Assembly (NCBI GenBank): GCA_013138865.1 | Contig: WTBY01000024.1 | Location: 62,001 to 126,000 of the forward strand | Length of the DNA stretch: 64,000 bases | Direction of reading: 5' to 3' | Source: Helicobacteraceae bacterium | GTDB lineage: Bacteria; Campylobacterota; Campylobacteria; Campylobacterales; Sulfurimonadaceae | Part shown: one piece after another, positions 17,374-26,037 of the stretch | How the letters are laid out: each line of letters opens with the position of its first letter | Numbering within the stretch: position 1 is the stretch's first letter | Notes under the pieces: generated by a model | Told to the model about the DNA's origin: nothing | Database searches by the model: none | The model's input: the letters and a program-made list of their open reading frames with translations, nothing else | Program-made: the position numbers and the translations under genes

Positions 17374-18819
17374 TTATAGGTATTGTGAAATATCTACCTC
17401 ATCTATCTGTTCTGGTTTAAGTCTATCTTTTGCATACTCTTTATAAATTCCACTACTCAAAAATAGTTTAAATAGATCAGGATCTAAGTGTTTGTCTTTA
17501 GCCATAAAGCTAAGAATTTTTACTGAAGCTGAGAGTGTTTTAGGCTCTTTATATGGTCGATCAGAAGCAGTAAGTGCTTCAAATACATCTGCGATCGCCA
17601 TAACTCTAGCAGGGATAGACATATCTTCAGCACTAAGTTGTCTTGGGTACCCTGTTCCGATCAGTGTTTCATGGTGAGATCCTGCATATAGTGGAACATT
17701 TTTTAGGTTTTCAGGAAAAGGTAGTTGTTCAAGCATTTTAATACTCATAACAACATGCTCTTGAATTTTAAACCTATCTTCATAAGTTAGTGTACCAGCA
17801 GAGATACATATATTTGTAAGCTCACCTAAATCATAAAGGTTTTCAGGTACTTTAGTTTTAAAACCAAATCTTTCATACTCTTCATAATCAAAATATTCTC
17901 GCTCAATTATATGTCTTTTTTTATCAGATAAAAGTTGCTCAACCGCTGGAGTTTCAGACTTTTCAAGAAGAACTCTCTGTTTCTCTTCATGTGCTAAACC
18001 TAAAGTGTCATCAAAATTTCTAACCCAAGTTCTTGAAGCTATTTCTCTAATTTTCTCTTTAGATTCATCTTTCATATATTCACCACCAACATTAGCAATA
18101 GCTAATATTTCATACTCTTCTACAAGCTTTTTATGTTCTACTTCAAGCCATGCATCAACAGTACTTACATCTTCACCAGCAAGTTTTTTCTCTAACGCTT
18201 CTATGGTTAGATCTCTATGAATAACTTCAAAACGAGTTCTTACTTCATGTATTCTGTTGTAAATAGTTTCTAGCTTTGTAGCTTTGTCAACTATGTATTC
18301 TGGGGTTGTAACTTTACCACAGTCATGTAGTAATGAAGCAATATTTAACTCACGAAGCTCATCTTCGCTCTCTAGTTTAAACTCTTTAAAAGGCTCTTCA
18401 TCAGAATTAGAAGCCTCTTTTACCAACATCATAGAGAGCTCAGGAACACGAATACAGTGACCACCAGTATACTTGCTCTTAGCATCAATAGCACCAGCAA
18501 TAAGCTCTATAAAAGAGTCCATAAGTTTTTTCTGAGACTCTTGAAGTGCTGTAACTTCTACAAGTCTATCTTGTAGTTCATCGTACTCTTTACGCTGTCG
18601 TTTATCAGCACGCGACATGATCTTATCTTGTCTTTTAATATCTTTAGCAAGCTTATCAATAGTCATATTGAAAGTTATTTTCAACTCATCAATTTCACCT
18701 ACTAATTTATTTTCCTCTTGATTAGACTCTTCTTCTCTTCGATCGTTAGTAGTAGAAGCTCTCTCTTTTTCTCTTCGTTCTGCTCGTTCTGCTTTACGGC
18801 GTTCTCTATCGTCACTCAT
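17374..18819 (-). CDS. HD-GYP domain protein, probable c-di-GMP phosphodiesterase
   Basis: A cytoplasmic protein of 481 residues. A highly charged Arg/Glu-rich N-terminus and coiled coil (about 1-100) precede a divided HD-GYP domain. The HD part has GGHCIRVPEL near 119-128 and LHDCGK with His165-Asp166 and Lys169. After an insert of about 130 residues (roughly 205-340), the second part has HHE and GTGYP near 395-407 and the block ADVFEALTASDRPY. HD-GYP proteins hydrolyse c-di-GMP to pGpG or GMP. The usual D in HHE..DGxGYP is absent (HHETLIGTGYP). It lies 7 bp downstream of the siaC-like gene, at the end of the Lap/Sia operon. Confidence 0.85.
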   Translation of the reverse strand: MSDDRERRKAERAERREKERASTTNDRREEESNQEENKLVGEIDELKITFNMTIDKLAKDIKRQDKIMSRADKRQRKEYDELQDRLVEVTALQESQKKLMDSFIELIAGAIDAKSKYTGGHCIRVPELSMMLVKEASNSDEEPFKEFKLESEDELRELNIASLLHDCGKVTTPEYIVDKATKLETIYNRIHEVRTRFEVIHRDLTIEALEKKLAGEDVSTVDAWLEVEHKKLVEEYEILAIANVGGEYMKDESKEKIREIASRTWVRNFDDTLGLAHEEKQRVLLEKSETPAVEQLLSDKKRHIIEREYFDYEEYERFGFKTKVPENLYDLGELTNICISAGTLTYEDRFKIQEHVVMSIKMLEQLPFPENLKNVPLYAGSHHETLIGTGYPRQLSAEDMSIPARVMAIADVFEALTASDRPYKEPKTLSASVKILSFMAKDKHLDPDLFKLFLSSGIYKEYAKDRLKPEQIDEVDISQYL

Positions 18820-18826
18820 AATTTAC

Positions 18827-19204
18827 CTACTTTGTAACTAACTCTATATCTAAATCTTCAAAATCTTCAACAAAGTCTTCACCAGCTTCTTCAGCTGACT
18901 CATTTTCTTCATCGTAGATCCAGTTAATTTTAATAGTATTGTCATCTTTAGCTTCATCTAAAAGATCAAAAAAGTCAAAAAATAGCTTAGAACTACTAGA
19001 GTTAAAATATATAATTTCCATATTAACAGTAGTTACATCTTGTGCGTTTTCCTCAAAGTAGTTCTCTAACCACTCCATCATAGGTTTATAAAACTCAAAT
19101 GTATTTTCAGGATATGATTTACCTACTAAACTTATAATACCTGACGTTGCATCTAGCTTTATTTCTGGTGTATACTTTGTTGCTTCAAAATTTAGATTTT
19201 CCAT
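18827..19204 (-). CDS. siaC: SiaC-family (DUF1987) partner protein
   Basis: An acidic protein of 125 residues of the DUF1987/SiaC family. The diagnostic pattern is an N-terminal YTPEIKLDATSGIISLVGKS with YPENTFEFYKPMMEWLENYF, then MEIIYFNSSSSKLFFDFFDLL. The Ser run at 69-72 is where the family carries its phospho-acceptor Thr/Ser. In Pseudomonas aeruginosa unphosphorylated SiaC binds and activates the diguanylate cyclase SiaD; SiaB phosphorylates it and SiaA dephosphorylates it. Here it follows two SiaB-like genes, but no SiaA phosphatase or SiaD-type cyclase lies next to it. The target is therefore open. Confidence 0.85.
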   Translation of the reverse strand: MENLNFEATKYTPEIKLDATSGIISLVGKSYPENTFEFYKPMMEWLENYFEENAQDVTTVNMEIIYFNSSSSKLFFDFFDLLDEAKDDNTIKINWIYDEENESAEEAGEDFVEDFEDLDIELVTK

Positions 19205-19225: not shown

Positions 19226-19765
19226 TTATAGTGTTGCTTCAAAACGAAAGTAAAATCTATCTTCACTAAGCGCTTTAAAATCATAATCAATTGTAGAACA
19301 TCTCTTTGCAATTTCATAAAAGCCTATTCCACCACCTTTATTATGCGTATCTTTACCACTTTTTCTTGCTTCTTTATAAAGCTTTTTTACACCAGCAATA
19401 TCAGTATCAACAATGCCTTGAAGTTTAGGTTCTAGCTTTTGTCTATCTTCTAAACTAACAACATTTTTACTTAATATATAGTACTTACCATCAGGTTTTT
19501 TGCCCAGAATTATAATTCCTTTAGGATCAAACTCTTTGCCATCTATCTCTATTTTTTTTGTATAATTCATCATATTTTGAGACAACTCTATAAAAATAGT
19601 AAAAATATTAGTAGACTCTTTTAAAGTTAAGTTTACACTTTCGCTCTCTTTTTCAATAGCCTCTGTCATGCCTACTATCAATGATTGTGTTAAAAATCCA
19701 CCATAAGTCAAGAATACTACCCCATTATTTTCAAGGGCATCTACTAATTTTTCTGTATCTATCAA
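19226..19765 (-). CDS. siaB: SiaB-family (DUF6272) protein kinase, second copy
   Basis: A cytoplasmic protein of 179 residues with a GHKL-like ATP-binding layout. ELSQNMMNY at 60-68 supplies the N-box Asn and KGGGIGFYEI at about 143-152 is a glycine box. The segment KKLYKEARKSGKD between them is shared with the neighbouring kinase. SiaB in Pseudomonas phosphorylates SiaC. The gene is 3 bp downstream of the other SiaB-like gene and 21 bp upstream of siaC, so both kinases probably act on that partner. It lacks membrane and sensor domains. Confidence 0.8.
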   Translation of the reverse strand: MIDTEKLVDALENNGVVFLTYGGFLTQSLIVGMTEAIEKESESVNLTLKESTNIFTIFIELSQNMMNYTKKIEIDGKEFDPKGIIILGKKPDGKYYILSKNVVSLEDRQKLEPKLQGIVDTDIAGVKKLYKEARKSGKDTHNKGGGIGFYEIAKRCSTIDYDFKALSEDRFYFRFEATL

Positions 19766-19768
19766 AAA

Positions 19769-20314
19769 TTATCCTTTTGCATTATTCACAGTTCTTTTTT
19801 TCTTTGGAACTACAATAGCTTTAAATTCAAATATATATTTCTCTTTATTTATCTCTTTAAAATTATACCCTATTGATTGTGTTAATTTAGCTATTTCATA
19901 AAAACCTATACCAGCACCTTTACCATGCTTATCTTTTCCACTTTTTCTTAACTCTTTATATTTTTTTTTAATTCCATCAGGATCTAAAGAGTGAATTTCA
20001 ATTAGTTTAGGTTCAATTTTTATTTTGTCATCTATGGAGATGATATTTTTGCTTTGAACATAAAATAATTCTTCACTCTCTTTAATAACTTCTATTGAGC
20101 CAGTGGCTTCAACTGCTCTAGAGTTTAAGGTATCTGTTTTAGAGTAGTTCATCATATTTTGCATAAGTTCTATAACTATTGTAGATATATAACTTTGCAT
20201 TCCCATATTTTCTATTGAGGTTTCTATTATGTCCATACTATTTTTAATAACACTCTGTTCTATTAGACCATCATGTTTGTATATCATACTTGACACTAAA
20301 ACCTCTCTTAACAT
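19769..20314 (-). CDS. siaB: SiaB-family (DUF6272) protein kinase, first copy
   Basis: A protein of 181 residues, clearly paralogous to the next gene and to the C-terminal 155 residues of the large LapD-like protein at 23003-25387. The N-box ELMQNMMNYSK is at 49-59, and YKELRKSGKDKHGKGAGIGF runs at about 119-138. A basic tail (KKKRTVNNAKG) follows. It resembles the fused domain more closely than it resembles its downstream neighbour, which suggests copying between gene and domain. The start is uncertain: the Met at 20287 has a GAGG further upstream, while the one given has a weak ribosome site. An AT-rich hairpin separates it from the lapD gene upstream. Confidence 0.8.
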   Translation of the reverse strand: MLREVLVSSMIYKHDGLIEQSVIKNSMDIIETSIENMGMQSYISTIVIELMQNMMNYSKTDTLNSRAVEATGSIEVIKESEELFYVQSKNIISIDDKIKIEPKLIEIHSLDPDGIKKKYKELRKSGKDKHGKGAGIGFYEIAKLTQSIGYNFKEINKEKYIFEFKAIVVPKKKRTVNNAKG

Positions 20315-20403: not shown

Positions 20404-22380
20404 TTATGATACTTTAATACTATCAGTAATTGGTCCTTGCACACTATCTATATGCATAGTTTGTAATTTTTTAAGCTCATCTTCTGTTTTTACAAAAGTT
20501 GCAATTATATCTATACCTAAAGAGTCTGTTATAACTTGTAGTGCACTCATAGAATCTTGTGACTGATCGAGTAAAAATGCACAGTCTGCTTTTAAGAATT
20601 TAGGATTTAGCTCTTTTAAGTAAGTAAAGTTATTTGACTCTCCTGTAAATGCATTAAGTCCAAAACCAAAGTTATATTTATTGAATAGTTCAACAAAACT
20701 TTTAACTGTTGCTGTGTTGTTAATGGCAAAACTGTCAGTAACCTCAAAAGATAGATCAAACTGTATAGTTTTTGCGTACTCATTAAGTAGAACTGATAGC
20801 TCATCAAAAGCTTTTGGATCTTTTATAAACTCATTCGATAGACGAATAGAGCATATACTTCCATCAAGTTCTGCATGTCTTTGAGTTATAAGATCTTTTA
20901 GAGTAACTATATAAATTTTAGAGACAAGTCCAAGGTTAATAGCTGGTGCTATAAAGTCACCATAGAAGTACTTTTTATTTTCGCCACCATCTATAGTAAA
21001 TGTCATAACGCTATGCTCTACAGTTTTTGACTTAGCATTCATTGTAGGCCAAAACTTTAGACTAAATAAGTTAGTATGAATTGACTCTTCGATGATTGTT
21101 CTCCACTGCTCTTTACCCATAGCATTTTCATCATTTTGCTCTTCATAAAGGTGTATATTATTACCCTCTTTAGCTTTTGCTTGTGATAGTGCATTATCTG
21201 CACGAGTCAGTAATTCACCAACATTAACAGATGGTTTATATCTATAAATACCAATATCTATAAATATTTTTTTATTATCTAACTCATTACTCTGCAGTAA
21301 AGCCTCAAAGTTTATGTTGATCTTTTGAGCAACTTCATATCCCATTTTAGCTTCACAATCAGGTAACATAAGAGTAAACTCTGTGCCATTTACACGTGCG
21401 ATCAACCTCTCTTCATACTCTTTACAAACATTGTTAAAAGATGAGGCTAAGCTTAAGAACATATCATCAGCTTTTTGTCGACCTAGAACTTGGTTAATCG
21501 CTTCAGCTCCACTAAGTGCTATAAATATTACAACACCACCCTCTGTTTTATTTGCTTCTTTTATAAGGTCTGGTAGTTTTAACATAAGGTAACGTCTATT
21601 AAATAGTTTAGTTGTCGGATCGTTATAAAGAAGTTCTCTATTCCTTTGAGCTGCTTCATTACCTTTTTCAAAAATATCTTCAACTTTGTTAACCATAGCA
21701 TTCATCCCGTAAACAACATCTTTAAACTCAGTTGTATATGGGATCTGCTCTTGAATAATAAACTCATTTTTAAGTATAGACTCTGCTTGGTGCTGAACTC
21801 TATAGAGAGGTTTTAGTACAAAATGAAGAACTGAACTAAGAACCAAAAGTGCAAGCGCTACTGAGATCGCAAATATATAAAGAAGGTTTGTAAACATCTT
21901 ATATAAAGCTTTATAAACTATGCCAGGATCACCTTCAACACTTAGAACACCTAACATATTAAAGCCATCCATAATATCTTCGCTTACAGTTTGTAGTTTA
22001 ATACTACTAAACTCTATAAACCACAGCGGTACACCCTCAACTGGATCATTGTCAATTTGCATATACTCAAACGAACCACTCTCAGAGCTAAACTTAACCA
22101 TTCTGTAGTAACCACCACCTACAGAGCCATCTATTTCTGATTCTATAAGTGCGTTATTACTACTCTCTTCTATAATTTCTTCATCATCACTACTCTCTTC
22201 TGTAAAATTATTTGCTTCTATTATTTTTTGCATTAGCGTTTGAAGATTATTTATTGTCGTTTGATTAAGTGACTCCAACATATCTTTTTTAGCCGATTGA
22301 TAGTTAATCGCCATGACCGAGCCAAGCATAATAATAATAATTAGTGAGACCATCAAGGCCATTTGTTTAAAGAGTGTCAT
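20404..22380 (-). CDS. lapD: LapD-like c-di-GMP receptor with degenerate GGDEF-EAL
   Basis: An inner-membrane receptor of 658 residues. A membrane helix at 8-26 leads into a periplasmic LapD_MoxY_N-type domain (about 27-160) with VPLWFIEF at 117-124, the Trp-bearing loop that holds LapG in known LapD proteins. A second helix lies at about 166-188, then HAMP. The GGDEF domain has NGTEF in place of GGDEF, and the EAL domain has lost the EAL triad. Both should be catalytically dead, so it binds rather than turns over c-di-GMP. The Met at 22380 is chosen because it overlaps the lapG stop (ATGA) and matches the paralogue's start MTLFKQMAL. An acidic Glu/Ser insert (60-80) sits in the periplasmic domain. 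Confidence 0.85.
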   Translation of the reverse strand: MTLFKQMALMVSLIIIIMLGSVMAINYQSAKKDMLESLNQTTINNLQTLMQKIIEANNFTEESSDDEEIIEESSNNALIESEIDGSVGGGYYRMVKFSSESGSFEYMQIDNDPVEGVPLWFIEFSSIKLQTVSEDIMDGFNMLGVLSVEGDPGIVYKALYKMFTNLLYIFAISVALALLVLSSVLHFVLKPLYRVQHQAESILKNEFIIQEQIPYTTEFKDVVYGMNAMVNKVEDIFEKGNEAAQRNRELLYNDPTTKLFNRRYLMLKLPDLIKEANKTEGGVVIFIALSGAEAINQVLGRQKADDMFLSLASSFNNVCKEYEERLIARVNGTEFTLMLPDCEAKMGYEVAQKININFEALLQSNELDNKKIFIDIGIYRYKPSVNVGELLTRADNALSQAKAKEGNNIHLYEEQNDENAMGKEQWRTIIEESIHTNLFSLKFWPTMNAKSKTVEHSVMTFTIDGGENKKYFYGDFIAPAINLGLVSKIYIVTLKDLITQRHAELDGSICSIRLSNEFIKDPKAFDELSVLLNEYAKTIQFDLSFEVTDSFAINNTATVKSFVELFNKYNFGFGLNAFTGESNNFTYLKELNPKFLKADCAFLLDQSQDSMSALQVITDSLGIDIIATFVKTEDELKKLQTMHIDSVQGPITDSIKVS

Positions 22381-23000
22381 AGTTTTTTCCTTTTCATTCC
22401 AGCTTCTAGCTTTTTCCATTTTTTCGATTTTGCGCCTGTATCACCATTAATGAGCTTTACCACTTTTATAATGTCTTTTCTTTTGGAAGCTGGCAGTATT
22501 TTTTTGTTGTTATTATCTAAAATAAGTATATCTTTTCTTGATTTTGGTTTTTTCTTTTTAAGGTATGCCAAAACCATATGAGAGACTTTTTTACCTCTTC
22601 TATCTTTATAAACAACATATGCAAATTTCATACGTTTTGGATCAACACCAAGCTCTTTTAAAATATAGTACTTAGCGATCGTATAGTCTTCACAATCACC
22701 CTTACCTTTTCCAACAAACTCATATAAAGTAGCCCAATAATCTTTAACACCATAAACTTTTTTATCACTCTTATATTTAATATAATTAACCCAATTATTA
22801 ACAGTGTTTAACTTTTTCGCTGTACTTTGAGACTTAAGTTTTTTAAGTAGTGCTTTATCCATATCTAAAAAACGATTTTTAGAGAATTTACCATACTTCT
22901 TTTCTGCTTGAGATATTACTTTTTTAGTTACAAGATCAGTAGCTACTATATTTGCATAAAAAAACAGCATGCCAATCATAAAAATTAAAATAAACTTCAT
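22377..23000 (-). CDS. lapG: LapG-like periplasmic cysteine protease
   Basis: A transglutaminase-like cysteine peptidase of 207 residues with a signal peptide (about 1-20). The catalytic triad is visible: Cys103 in KGDCEDY, His141 in VSHMVLAY and Asp162 in LILDNN. Asp102 and Glu104 beside the Cys match the calcium-site region of LapG. In pseudomonads LapG cuts the N-terminal retention module of a giant adhesin such as LapA, releasing the cell from a surface, unless LapD binds it. The gene lies between two lapD-like genes, 2 bp after the first and overlapping the second by 4 bp. The basic C-terminal tail is longer than usual. No adhesin gene lies in the window. Confidence 0.87.
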   Translation of the reverse strand: MKFILIFMIGMLFFYANIVATDLVTKKVISQAEKKYGKFSKNRFLDMDKALLKKLKSQSTAKKLNTVNNWVNYIKYKSDKKVYGVKDYWATLYEFVGKGKGDCEDYTIAKYYILKELGVDPKRMKFAYVVYKDRRGKKVSHMVLAYLKKKKPKSRKDILILDNNNKKILPASKRKDIIKVVKLINGDTGAKSKKWKKLEAGMKRKKL

Positions 23001-23002
23001 AA

Positions 23003-25387
23003 CTAGTCACTCTTCTTTATTTTGTTATCTATACGTACTTTAAACTTAAAGCTATAGCGTTCTTTATTTAATTCATCAAACCTATACTCTATTTTAGAAG
23101 TTAACTTGGCTATTTCATAAAAACCAATTCCACCGCCTTTAGCATGAGTATTTACGCCTGATTTTCTTAACTCTCTGTATCGCTTACGAATACCAGCTGA
23201 GTCCAAAGTCAATATCTCTGCTAGTGTTGGCTCTATTCGTTTCATATCTTCTAAACTAATGATATTTTCACTATGAACATAGTAATTGAAATCTTCATCT
23301 TTAGTTACTTCTATGTAACCAGTTAAACTTAACTGATCTGATTTTAGATCTTTTGAGTAGTTCATCATGTTTTGTAGTAGTTCAACTGAAACGGTAGAGA
23401 CTTTAGTCATAAGTGAAAAGTTAACGATATTATCTTCAAGATTATCCATACAGTAACTTACAACACCTTGTGTTATGGTACCGTTGTATTTCATAATGTG
23501 TTTTATACTAGCACCATAAATACCTAGCTCTCGTAACTTGTTAAAGTCACTCTCATCTTTTGCATCTTCACTAAACACTTTTATGTTTAAGAGTTTAGAG
23601 AGTTCACAAATAGACTCTACAAAGCTCTGCTTAGAGCGATCAGAACTTATATCATTTGTATATTCTCTTGCTAGCCTTATATAGTCTAAGTTTAACTCTT
23701 TCAAAGAGTCTAAAGGAATAAATTTTGTTTCAAAACGTTTAAGTATAACTTTTGCACCATTATCATGGACAAGTGTTATAAACTTTTTAAAAGCTTCTAT
23801 ATCTCTAACACATCCATAAGCTGTCATACTAAAAACAAGTTGTGAAGATATATCTTTGTTACTATTTAGTGTCTGTATCAACCAACTGTTAAACTCATCG
23901 TCTAAAAGTGAGTCAAAAGCTAAGTTTATAAGGATCTCATTTTTAACTTTTTTTACTCTTATATATTCTACGATCTGACCTATTACAGCCTTATCAAAAT
24001 CCACGATTTTGTTGTACATCTCAGCTACGGAGATAAAAGTACCTATTTGAATAGTTTTGTTTGAACTATCAACAGCAGAAGTAAACGCTTCTTCTAAAAG
24101 CACTTTACGATCGGAGTCCATGGAAAGAGCCTGATGTATATAACCAACATGAAAAGTTGAGTTATCAATAACCCCGCACACTAACTCTTTCCAAACTAAC
24201 ATATCTTTAGCAAGGTCGCCCTTGTCTCTTATAAAAAATTCATTGGCTCCAACTGTTTTGGCTTTATCATAAGCCATATTTGCAAACTCAAAGATCTCAT
24301 CAGTAGTACTAATAGGGTTAAATGGAGTTGCACCTATATGTGCTACATTTGAGATTCCATACTCATCACCTAAACTTTTAAATGAATTTTGGAGTTCTTT
24401 TGAAAGTTTTAAAATTTCATCATAATCAGTTATTTTAGATATAAGTGCAAAGTTAGAACCAAAGAAGCGGTAAGCAGTAGTTTTAACGTTACACGTACTT
24501 AAAATATTTGCAAAATCTTTTAAAAATTTATCTACTATATTTTTTGCATTATTTTTTGCAAACTCTCCAAAATTATCAATTTTTATACTAAAGATGTAAC
24601 CATCTTTTTTCTTAATAAACATCATCTTCATATCTGTATTAAAAGTCTGTTCTTGCTCTAGTCCTGTAAGATCATCTTTTGAGAGTTCATCTGTCATTTT
24701 TTCTAAATTATTATTTAACTTAGAGATCATACTTTTTATTTTGTTTGACATATCATTCATTGATAAAGATACGTTTTTAAGCTCTAGCGTTGAAGGTATT
24801 TTTTCTATAGTTTCAAACTTACCTTGTGAAATATTTTTTGAAAGAATTTCGATATCTTTTAGAGGCTTAAGTATAAAACGAAGCATAACACTCAAAATAA
24901 TTAAAAATATAGAGATAGAGATACCAAAAATATAGAGATAATTTTCAAACATTTTGAAAAGTGCTTTATAAACTACAGCAGTATCACCTAAAACTGTAAC
25001 TTCTCCGATTATATCCCAACCTGCCGTTACAGTTGCAGAGATACTCTCTAACTCTATATTTGAGTACTCTATAAACCAAAGAGGAACACCTTTTACTGGG
25101 TCATTATCAAGCTGTTTATAGTCACTCTTACCATCAGTCGATTGAAAATCAATCATCTTAAAATAGCCACCACCAGCTTCAGCGTCTATTATGCTCTCTA
25201 ACTCTGCTTTGTCACCACCTGTCTCTGCTAGTTTGTCTGCTAATGTTCCAATATTATTTACTGTAGTTTGAAAAAGTGTTTCAACCATATCTGATTTAGA
25301 TGCTTTATAGTTAATAGCCATAACAATACCAAGAAGAGCAACTATCATGATAGTAATAGCAAGTGCCATCTGTTTAAAAAGTGTCAT
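23003..25387 (-). CDS. lapD: LapD-like receptor fused to a C-terminal SiaB-type kinase domain
   Basis: The protein has 794 residues with domains in this order: membrane helix 8-26; LapD-type periplasmic domain about 27-150 with VPLWFIEY at 101-108; second helix 151-170; HAMP about 171-225; degenerate GGDEF about 235-385 with FFGSNF (308-313) for GGDEF; degenerate EAL about 395-628 with no EAL triad; and a SiaB/DUF6272 domain about 633-787. The last has ELLQNMMNYSK (669-679) and AKGGGIGFYEIAK (749-761). The first half mirrors the other LapD in this operon. The fusion would let one receptor hold LapG outside and phosphorylate a SiaC-type protein inside. No stop or frame change breaks the join. 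It is probably the first gene of the operon. Confidence 0.85.
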   Translation of the reverse strand: MTLFKQMALAITIMIVALLGIVMAINYKASKSDMVETLFQTTVNNIGTLADKLAETGGDKAELESIIDAEAGGGYFKMIDFQSTDGKSDYKQLDNDPVKGVPLWFIEYSNIELESISATVTAGWDIIGEVTVLGDTAVVYKALFKMFENYLYIFGISISIFLIILSVMLRFILKPLKDIEILSKNISQGKFETIEKIPSTLELKNVSLSMNDMSNKIKSMISKLNNNLEKMTDELSKDDLTGLEQEQTFNTDMKMMFIKKKDGYIFSIKIDNFGEFAKNNAKNIVDKFLKDFANILSTCNVKTTAYRFFGSNFALISKITDYDEILKLSKELQNSFKSLGDEYGISNVAHIGATPFNPISTTDEIFEFANMAYDKAKTVGANEFFIRDKGDLAKDMLVWKELVCGVIDNSTFHVGYIHQALSMDSDRKVLLEEAFTSAVDSSNKTIQIGTFISVAEMYNKIVDFDKAVIGQIVEYIRVKKVKNEILINLAFDSLLDDEFNSWLIQTLNSNKDISSQLVFSMTAYGCVRDIEAFKKFITLVHDNGAKVILKRFETKFIPLDSLKELNLDYIRLAREYTNDISSDRSKQSFVESICELSKLLNIKVFSEDAKDESDFNKLRELGIYGASIKHIMKYNGTITQGVVSYCMDNLEDNIVNFSLMTKVSTVSVELLQNMMNYSKDLKSDQLSLTGYIEVTKDEDFNYYVHSENIISLEDMKRIEPTLAEILTLDSAGIRKRYRELRKSGVNTHAKGGGIGFYEIAKLTSKIEYRFDELNKERYSFKFKVRIDNKIKKSD

Positions 25388-25422: not shown

Positions 25423-26037
25423 CTAAAAACTTTTAAACTTTTTTTTTGTAAAACTTTTCAACACTTCAATAGCATTTTTATTCTCTTTAACAACAGCAAA
25501 GTCATAAGGTGAGTAACCATCGCTATTTTTTACATTTGGCTCTGCACCTACATTCATTAAAAACTCTATTATTATCGGAACTCCTGTAAATGCAGCTTGA
25601 TGCAGTGGCGTTATAGAGTCATCATTTTCCAAATTCACATCTGCACCACTAATAGCTAAAAACTTAACAAGTCGTAACCTCTTTTTTTTAATTGATAAAA
25701 GTAGTGGTGTATTTCCTCTGTTGTCATAAGCATCAATATCAGCTCCATTATCAAGTAAAATTTGTGCTATCTTTAGATCACGCTTTTTTATGGCTATATG
25801 TAGAGGTGTAAGTCCTGCTGCGTTTTGAACATTTACATCTGAACCATTTTTAAGTAACTCTTTTACTTTTTCACTGTTTTCATAGTAAACTGCGTCATGC
25901 AAAGCAACTCGTCCATCTACACTATCTGCTAGCCCTAACACAAAGAACATTGATAGTAAAAAAACAACTCTTATAACATGTGTATTTAAATTATTTATTG
26001 GCAACTTACTATTCAACATATATTCCTTTTGTTTCAT
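25423..26037 (-). CDS. Exported ankyrin-repeat protein
   Basis: The protein has 204 residues: an N-terminal hydrophobic segment at about 22-37, then about four to five ankyrin repeats. These are visible as recurring blocks GLTPLHIAIKKRDLKIAQIL, GNTPLLLSIKKKRLRLVKFL, SITPLHQAAFTGVPIIIEFL and GYSPYDFAVVKENKNAIEVL. Ankyrin repeats bind proteins; small periplasmic ones in this phylum have been linked to oxidative-stress defence. It is read in the same direction as the Lap operon but lies downstream of the opposite-facing mqnP start and 35 bp before lapD, so it may be co-transcribed into that operon. Function unknown. Confidence 0.8.
   Translation of the reverse strand: MKQKEYMLNSKLPINNLNTHVIRVVFLLSMFFVLGLADSVDGRVALHDAVYYENSEKVKELLKNGSDVNVQNAAGLTPLHIAIKKRDLKIAQILLDNGADIDAYDNRGNTPLLLSIKKKRLRLVKFLAISGADVNLENDDSITPLHQAAFTGVPIIIEFLMNVGAEPNVKNSDGYSPYDFAVVKENKNAIEVLKSFTKKKFKSF

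Follow-up and report, generated by a model that had tools for sequence, protein, structure and literature searches.

A LapD-type membrane receptor with a C-terminal SiaB-type kinase domain in a Sulfurimonas-family bacterium

LapD-LapG and SiaABC have been studied separately as controls of attachment. A gene of a Sulfurimonas-family bacterium, located in a window of 64,000 nucleotides (the whole stretch of DNA analysed), raises the question of whether both may be addressed by a single membrane receptor, as its product joins the layout of the c-di-GMP receptor LapD to a kinase domain of the SiaB type.

Domain anatomy of the LapD-SiaB fusion

The first-pass annotation had proposed a LapD layout and a SiaB-type C-terminus of about 155 residues within one frame, which is borne out by Pfam and NCBIfam matches along 794 codons without an internal stop. 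The strand, missing from that annotation, turned out to be minus, the gene running from 25387 to 23003. Its parts are the following:

23003..25387, minus strand: LapD-SiaB fusion, 794 aa (Pfam and NCBIfam)
24872..25387, minus strand: residues 1 to ~172, with TM1, the LapD_MoxY_N periplasmic domain and TM2, of the Sulfurimonadaceae LapD type
25016..25018, minus strand: Trp124 of the GW loop, the LapG anchor in known LapDs (alignment and PMC4359373)
24734..24886, minus strand: HAMP, residues 168-218, with the changeover between LapD types at its start (Pfam and segment-wise comparison)
24242..24676, minus strand: degenerate GGDEF, residues 238-382 (Pfam)
23516..24115, minus strand: degenerate EAL, residues 425-624 (Pfam and alignment)
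23492..23509, minus strand: junction, residues 627-632 (end of YGAS, then IKHIM)
23006..23497, minus strand: SiaB kinase domain, residues 631-794 (Pfam, NCBIfam and structure model)
23357..23383, minus strand: N-box, E669 to Y677 (conserved-column alignment)
23108..23137, minus strand: glycine box GGGIGFYEIA, residues 751-760 (alignment)

The LapD_MoxY_N domain (Pfam, residues 24-144, 6.8e-17) lies between two hydrophobic helices (about 7-25 and 149-172) and is followed by HAMP (a weak match, 0.015), GGDEF (3e-7) and EAL (9.7e-30) domains, the order by which a LapD layout is recognized, and finally by DUF6272 (PF19788; residues 651-780, 4.6e-23). The NCBIfam model of LapD spans residues 1-629 with an E value of 1.1e-68, but stays under its equivalog cut-off, and SiaB_fam_kinase (NF038262) spans residues 630-786 with 87.4 bits against a cut-off of 85. 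Chance is excluded as an explanation of these matches, and the anatomy of the fusion is near certain. The catalytic motifs of the GGDEF and EAL domains are degenerate (FGSNF, EAFTS, KRFE and IRLA), and in the PDB the cytoplasmic part is best matched by the P. fluorescens LapD structure 3pjw (1.4e-20). The fusion shares with the LapDs of Pseudomonas fluorescens and Vibrio cholerae the entire order TM-periplasm-TM-HAMP-GGDEF-EAL, the degenerate motifs, the GW anchor and an adjacent LapG gene (PMC3032553, PMC4359373, PMC6890996), but differs from them in the additional C-terminal kinase domain, in some of its c-di-GMP contacts and in the presence of a second LapD in its gene run.

The SiaB fold expected at the C-terminus, whose absence would have refuted the first-pass annotation, was recovered in a structure model of this domain (mean pLDDT 91.2, based on 42 aligned relatives). 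In the PDB, this model is matched strongly by nothing but the two SiaB chains of 6kko, the SiaB-SiaC complex from P. aeruginosa, the better one being 6kko_A (E 4.5e-9, TM 0.80). Among the 34 columns conserved to at least 90% in the relatives, 30 are unchanged and the remaining four show conservative changes. N-box and glycine box are complete (E669, N673, G751, G753, G755), the nucleotide-binding residues are retained in the alignment with the relatives, and ELLQNMMNYS and GGGIGFYEIA are indeed common to the fusion and the stand-alone proteins at 20314-19769 and 19765-19226, as originally observed. The nucleotide pocket is intact, and the domain is predicted to be an active kinase, presumably phosphorylating SiaC. 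P. aeruginosa SiaB has the same fold, both boxes and a SiaC gene nearby, but is a separate protein, whereas the domain forms the tail of a membrane receptor in the fusion. Note that the model of the full-length chain is poor outside of GGDEF and SiaB (mean pLDDT 66, from an alignment of limited sequence input) and too weak to judge interdomain contacts. Production of a free SiaB from an internal start at Met632 was considered and dropped, as no ribosome-binding site is evident before this codon.

Gene context and mosaic origin

The fusion gene belongs to a run of eight genes on one strand, separated by short gaps or overlapping, which extends from an ankyrin-repeat protein to an HD-GYP protein (26037 to 17374). 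No terminator-like site was found on the coding strand within this run, and the genes are presumably co-transcribed. The ankyrin-repeat protein is encoded at 25423-26037, directly upstream of the fusion and on the same strand; the features downstream are as follows:

22377..23000, minus strand: LapG-type cysteine protease (Peptidase_C93; Pfam and NCBIfam)
20404..22419, minus strand: second LapD (LapDb), likely starting at residue 14 (22380) and overlapping the LapG stop, with Phe replacing the anchor Trp
19769..20314, minus strand: SiaB1, stand-alone, of the type nearest to the fused domain (Pfam and tree)
19226..19765, minus strand: SiaB2, an ordinary stand-alone SiaB (Pfam and tree)
18827..19204, minus strand: SiaC, with Ser69 at the place of P. 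aeruginosa Thr68 (Pfam and alignment)
17374..18819, minus strand: HD-GYP-type protein with a long insert and a coiled-coil stalk (Pfam and alignment)
18595..18633, minus strand: stalk motif RQDKIMSRADKRQ, residues 63-75 of the HD-GYP protein, matching the SiaC-binding motif of SiaD

The downstream trio SiaB-SiaC-HD-GYP represents a conserved module, which also occurs in a locus of the Arcobacteraceae (L060) in the order sensor-SpoIIE-SiaB, SiaB, SiaC, HD-GYP. Compared to L060, the LapD-SiaB fusion occupies the first place in the window, and LapG, LapDb and SiaB1 are extra, so by analogy the LapD unit may stand where a sensor and a phosphatase stand elsewhere. The sensor-SpoIIE-SiaB (SiaA-SiaB) fusions of L058-L061 and L065 contain the nearest SiaB clade and share the domain boundary of the fusion, but their input consists of a sensor and a phosphatase rather than a LapD; no SpoIIE/PP2C (SiaA phosphatase) domain was found by Pfam among the products of the gene run in the window. 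SpoIIE-SiaB and SiaA-like genes are present elsewhere in the genome. The initial statement that SiaB is a separate protein in known systems needs correction in view of these SiaB domains fused behind SiaA-type phosphatases.

When identity was compared segment by segment against 22 LapDs from the same family and 12 belonging to a type of ~740 residues, the LapD part proved composite; counting SiaB, the fusion is a mosaic drawn from three sources. Up to about residue 165, through the first helix, the periplasmic domain and the second helix, the chain is closer to the LapDs of its own family (51-59% mean identity versus 19-40%), while from where HAMP begins as far as residue 627 it is closer to the ~740-residue type (39-68% versus 12-33%). 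The latter type occurs in family f9 of the same order, probably the Arcobacteraceae (L106-L116; LapG adjoins in all 11 loci read), and also in a single genome (G180) of the family to which the window belongs. Its HAMP-GGDEF-EAL part in f9 is 41-50% identical to the fusion over residues ~99-630, whereas its periplasmic part differs, and the chains terminate at YGASR or similar in the very column where the fusion continues with YGAS-IKHIMKYNG into SiaB. Almost no linker remains between EAL and SiaB, and the SiaB part starts at the boundary seen in the sensor-SpoIIE-SiaB proteins. The neighboring LapG is 59-73% identical to the LapGs of Sulfurimonadaceae and 37-46% to those of f9, which, taken with the segment-wise comparison, means that the periplasmic part and LapG match in origin and that the cytoplasmic part is foreign to both. 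A tree of 54 SiaB domains places the fused one with SiaB1 of the window and five SiaB domains located behind SpoIIE phosphatases (support 100/98), and SiaB2 with the stand-alone SiaBs. Another family of GGDEF-EAL proteins of ~718 residues with a different N-terminus (L021, L026, L028, L033) is 30-35% identical to the GGDEF-EAL part of the fusion.

The domains and the fold postulated at the outset were thus found, but a second copy of the architecture was not: no further LapD-SiaB chain turned up when 228 genomes of the family, overlapping draws of 399 genomes from the order and 397 from the phylum, and 72,556 plasmids were searched. SiaB relatives were also sought in 84,980 species, in a scan that detects only those with GIGFYEIA or [SAL]QNMMNY and in which absence is not proof; it yielded 48 loci with five SiaB fusions, all of them behind SpoIIE phosphatases and none behind a LapD. 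No published link joining LapD and SiaB was found in the literature searched, and LapD-SiaB is a new combination of known domains, which may be young or private to this single bacterium. Loss of a stop codon between a LapD gene and an adjacent SiaB copy might accordingly have created a fusion without any new regulatory link, in which the two halves work independently or the SiaB tail is tolerated baggage. Such an origin would agree with the single occurrence, with a junction placed at the LapD C-terminus and a SiaB domain boundary beside a SiaB copy of the same type, and with the presence of two further SiaBs in the run that could do the kinase job. We still consider it unlikely, because the highly conserved SiaB columns are retained or changed conservatively and because the fusion sits at the place of the sensor-SiaB fusion of L060.

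SiaC and its putative HD-GYP target

In P. aeruginosa, SiaC binds to the stalk of SiaD via R74, K77, V78, S82, D83, R84, Q86 and other residues, and phosphorylation of SiaC at T68 abolishes this binding (PMC8457831). The gene following SiaC in the window encodes an HD-GYP-type protein and not the diguanylate cyclase SiaD. Its metal-binding His/Asp and GYP motifs (HD, HH, GTGYP and DVFEAL) are kept around the long insert, as seen in the alignment to PmGH 4mcw and 5z7c. With the contact residues named in PMC8457831 as a basis, its stalk sequence RQDKIMSRADKRQ matches R74, K77, V78 (as Ile), D83, R84 (as Lys) and Q86 of SiaD, while the position of S82 is occupied by Ala in this protein and by Ser in most relatives. 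The stalk pattern was observed in 37 of the 994 open frames of the 48 loci and in none of 50 residue shuffles. HD-GYP proteins account for 34 of the 37 cases, mostly encoded directly after SiaC, and these should be regarded as one conserved feature rather than 34 independent ones because the proteins are homologous. A PDB search with the HD-GYP stalk alone gave no match.

As judged from this motif, SiaC probably acts on an HD-GYP phosphodiesterase and not on a SiaD cyclase. HD-GYP proteins bearing the SiaD-type SiaC-binding motif are encoded beside SiaC in L062-L105 as well as in the window (18595-18633), suggesting that SiaC-controlled phosphodiesterases may be widespread in Campylobacterota and some gammaproteobacteria; no description of an HD-GYP enzyme under SiaC control was found in the literature searched. 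The genome contains six SiaC genes, two of which (L133, L134; G000:C52, C77) have no SiaB directly beside them. A protein encoded after a LapB-type exporter (L132:10156-11001) has a coiled-coil N-terminus, KKRLERVTDQGDRQHKQ, resembling the SiaC-binding stalk, and a kinase-like protein near a SiaB-SiaC pair (L131:7572-8525) contains the stalk RLEKIMLHSDKQQ and is possibly another SiaC target.

The SiaB tail might also serve as a membrane dock that keeps SiaC, and thereby the HD-GYP protein with its SiaC-binding stalk, near the LapD-LapG complex, with kinase turnover being secondary. In the best fold match, 6kko, SiaB is bound to SiaC, and kinase activity could come from the two free SiaBs, but every residue of the nucleotide pocket is kept in the fused domain, which a mere dock would not need. 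We regard a purely docking role as distinctly improbable.

C-di-GMP input and the two predicted outputs

The EAL domain of the fusion lacks the EALxR arginine, the FE-motif glutamate and the lysine and aspartate of KID, and the residues replacing these contacts are themselves conserved in 12 of 12 relatives. The Arg of the GGDEF domain that holds a second c-di-GMP in V. cholerae LapD apparently has no counterpart in the fusion, its placement being our own reading of the alignment. These differences would fit a receptor responding to another ligand or a partner protein, or relaying a periplasmic LapG signal inward to the kinase. We give little credence to such an input, since N488, R551 and E607 are retained in the fusion and in all 12 proteins of the ~740-residue type, the best PDB match is a c-di-GMP receptor of the LapD type from P. 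fluorescens, and the Arg of EALxR is, by alignment, also missing from V. cholerae LapD, which was crystallized with c-di-GMP (PMC6890996). Binding of c-di-GMP by the fusion is plausible by homology, and we infer that it drives both outputs.

For the outward branch, VPLWFIEY, highlighted at first, is indeed a signature that marks these LapDs, but LapG is known to be anchored by the Trp of the GW loop (PMC4359373), represented here by W124. This residue is present in 33 of the 34 LapDs compared, the sole exception being LapDb of the window (Phe), which suggests that, of the two, the fusion may bind LapG better. The Q of the GWxQ loop is I in the fusion, and related LapDs also carry other residues there. 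A LapG-like protease under an unusual c-di-GMP-binding membrane receptor is likewise known from DvhD of Desulfovibrio vulgaris, although DvhD, a dCache-containing HD-GYP receptor, has no kinase (PMC13090378).

The genome encodes two LapB-type exporters and, as a candidate LapG substrate, a protein of 1549 residues with a weak match to the LapA retention module and DTAAGEE around residue 115. All of them are located close to SiaB-SiaC genes, and a search of the genome for RTX repeats (PF00353) gave no match. SiaB/SiaC genes lie near LapB-type exporters and weak retention-module proteins at L132 (G000:C3) and at L131 and L136 (G000:C12). The retention-module protein of G000:C12 carries DTAAGEE, and that of G000:C3 is a long PTDA repeat without it. 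A second LapG-LapD pair (L005, L135; G000:C82) adjoins glycosyltransferase genes.

An assembly artefact joining two genes is rejected as extremely improbable: the genome is a draft of 82 contigs with only one example, but the frame is continuous inside a contig of 181,857 bases, and the junction lies deep in a tightly packed same-strand run with both halves ending at domain boundaries.

In the mechanism we propose, c-di-GMP or a bound partner would shift the GGDEF-EAL unit, and this change would be relayed outward via HAMP to the periplasmic domain, which would capture LapG with Trp124 and spare the surface adhesin. The same movement would be relayed inward through the rigid, nearly linker-less junction and alter the activity or pairing of SiaB; phosphorylation of SiaC on Ser69 would then release it from the HD-GYP stalk and change the phosphodiesterase activity. 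Adhesin retention and c-di-GMP breakdown would thus come under the joint control of one receptor, in a loop that could either lock attachment in or damp it. Sequence and fold establish the parts and their features; binding, catalysis, coupling and the sign of the coupling are what we infer for the fusion.

The first interpretation, a c-di-GMP signal passed both to LapG and to a SiaC-type partner, has held as to architecture, SiaB fold and nucleotide-binding residues, and a SiaC gene is part of the run. The full dual-output reading, with LapG capture outside and SiaC phosphorylation setting the HD-GYP phosphodiesterase inside, is supported by the domains, fold and residues present, by a junction precisely where the ~740-residue LapDs naturally end, and by a LapG-docking part matching the family type of the neighboring LapG. 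It is further supported by the conserved SiaB-SiaC-HD-GYP trio, preceded in L060 by a sensor-SpoIIE-SiaB protein in place of the fusion, by the SiaC docking motif on the HD-GYP stalk, by the lack of terminator-like sites on the coding strand of the run, and by the LapB-type exporters and the candidate LapA-like TAAG substrate. Against it stand the lack of an orthologue in the genomes searched, the partly kept c-di-GMP contacts, the absence of a SiaA phosphatase from the run, the poor full-length model, and the absence of SiaC-HD-GYP control from the papers searched. On balance, we lean slightly toward accepting the dual-output reading. Its stricter form, in which c-di-GMP binding to EAL directly switches the attached SiaB, and LapG capture and SiaC-controlled HD-GYP breakdown constitute one feedback unit, is put forward more tentatively, as a conceivable but somewhat doubtful extension.

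A general idea that would be cheap to test is that SiaC proteins act on HD-GYP phosphodiesterases, and set their activity, via the same kind of stalk motif as on SiaD, and the fusion represents a ready test protein for EAL movements reaching an output other than the periplasmic one. If the covalent link is what it appears to be, a c-di-GMP receptor could also command an enzyme that sets the c-di-GMP level.
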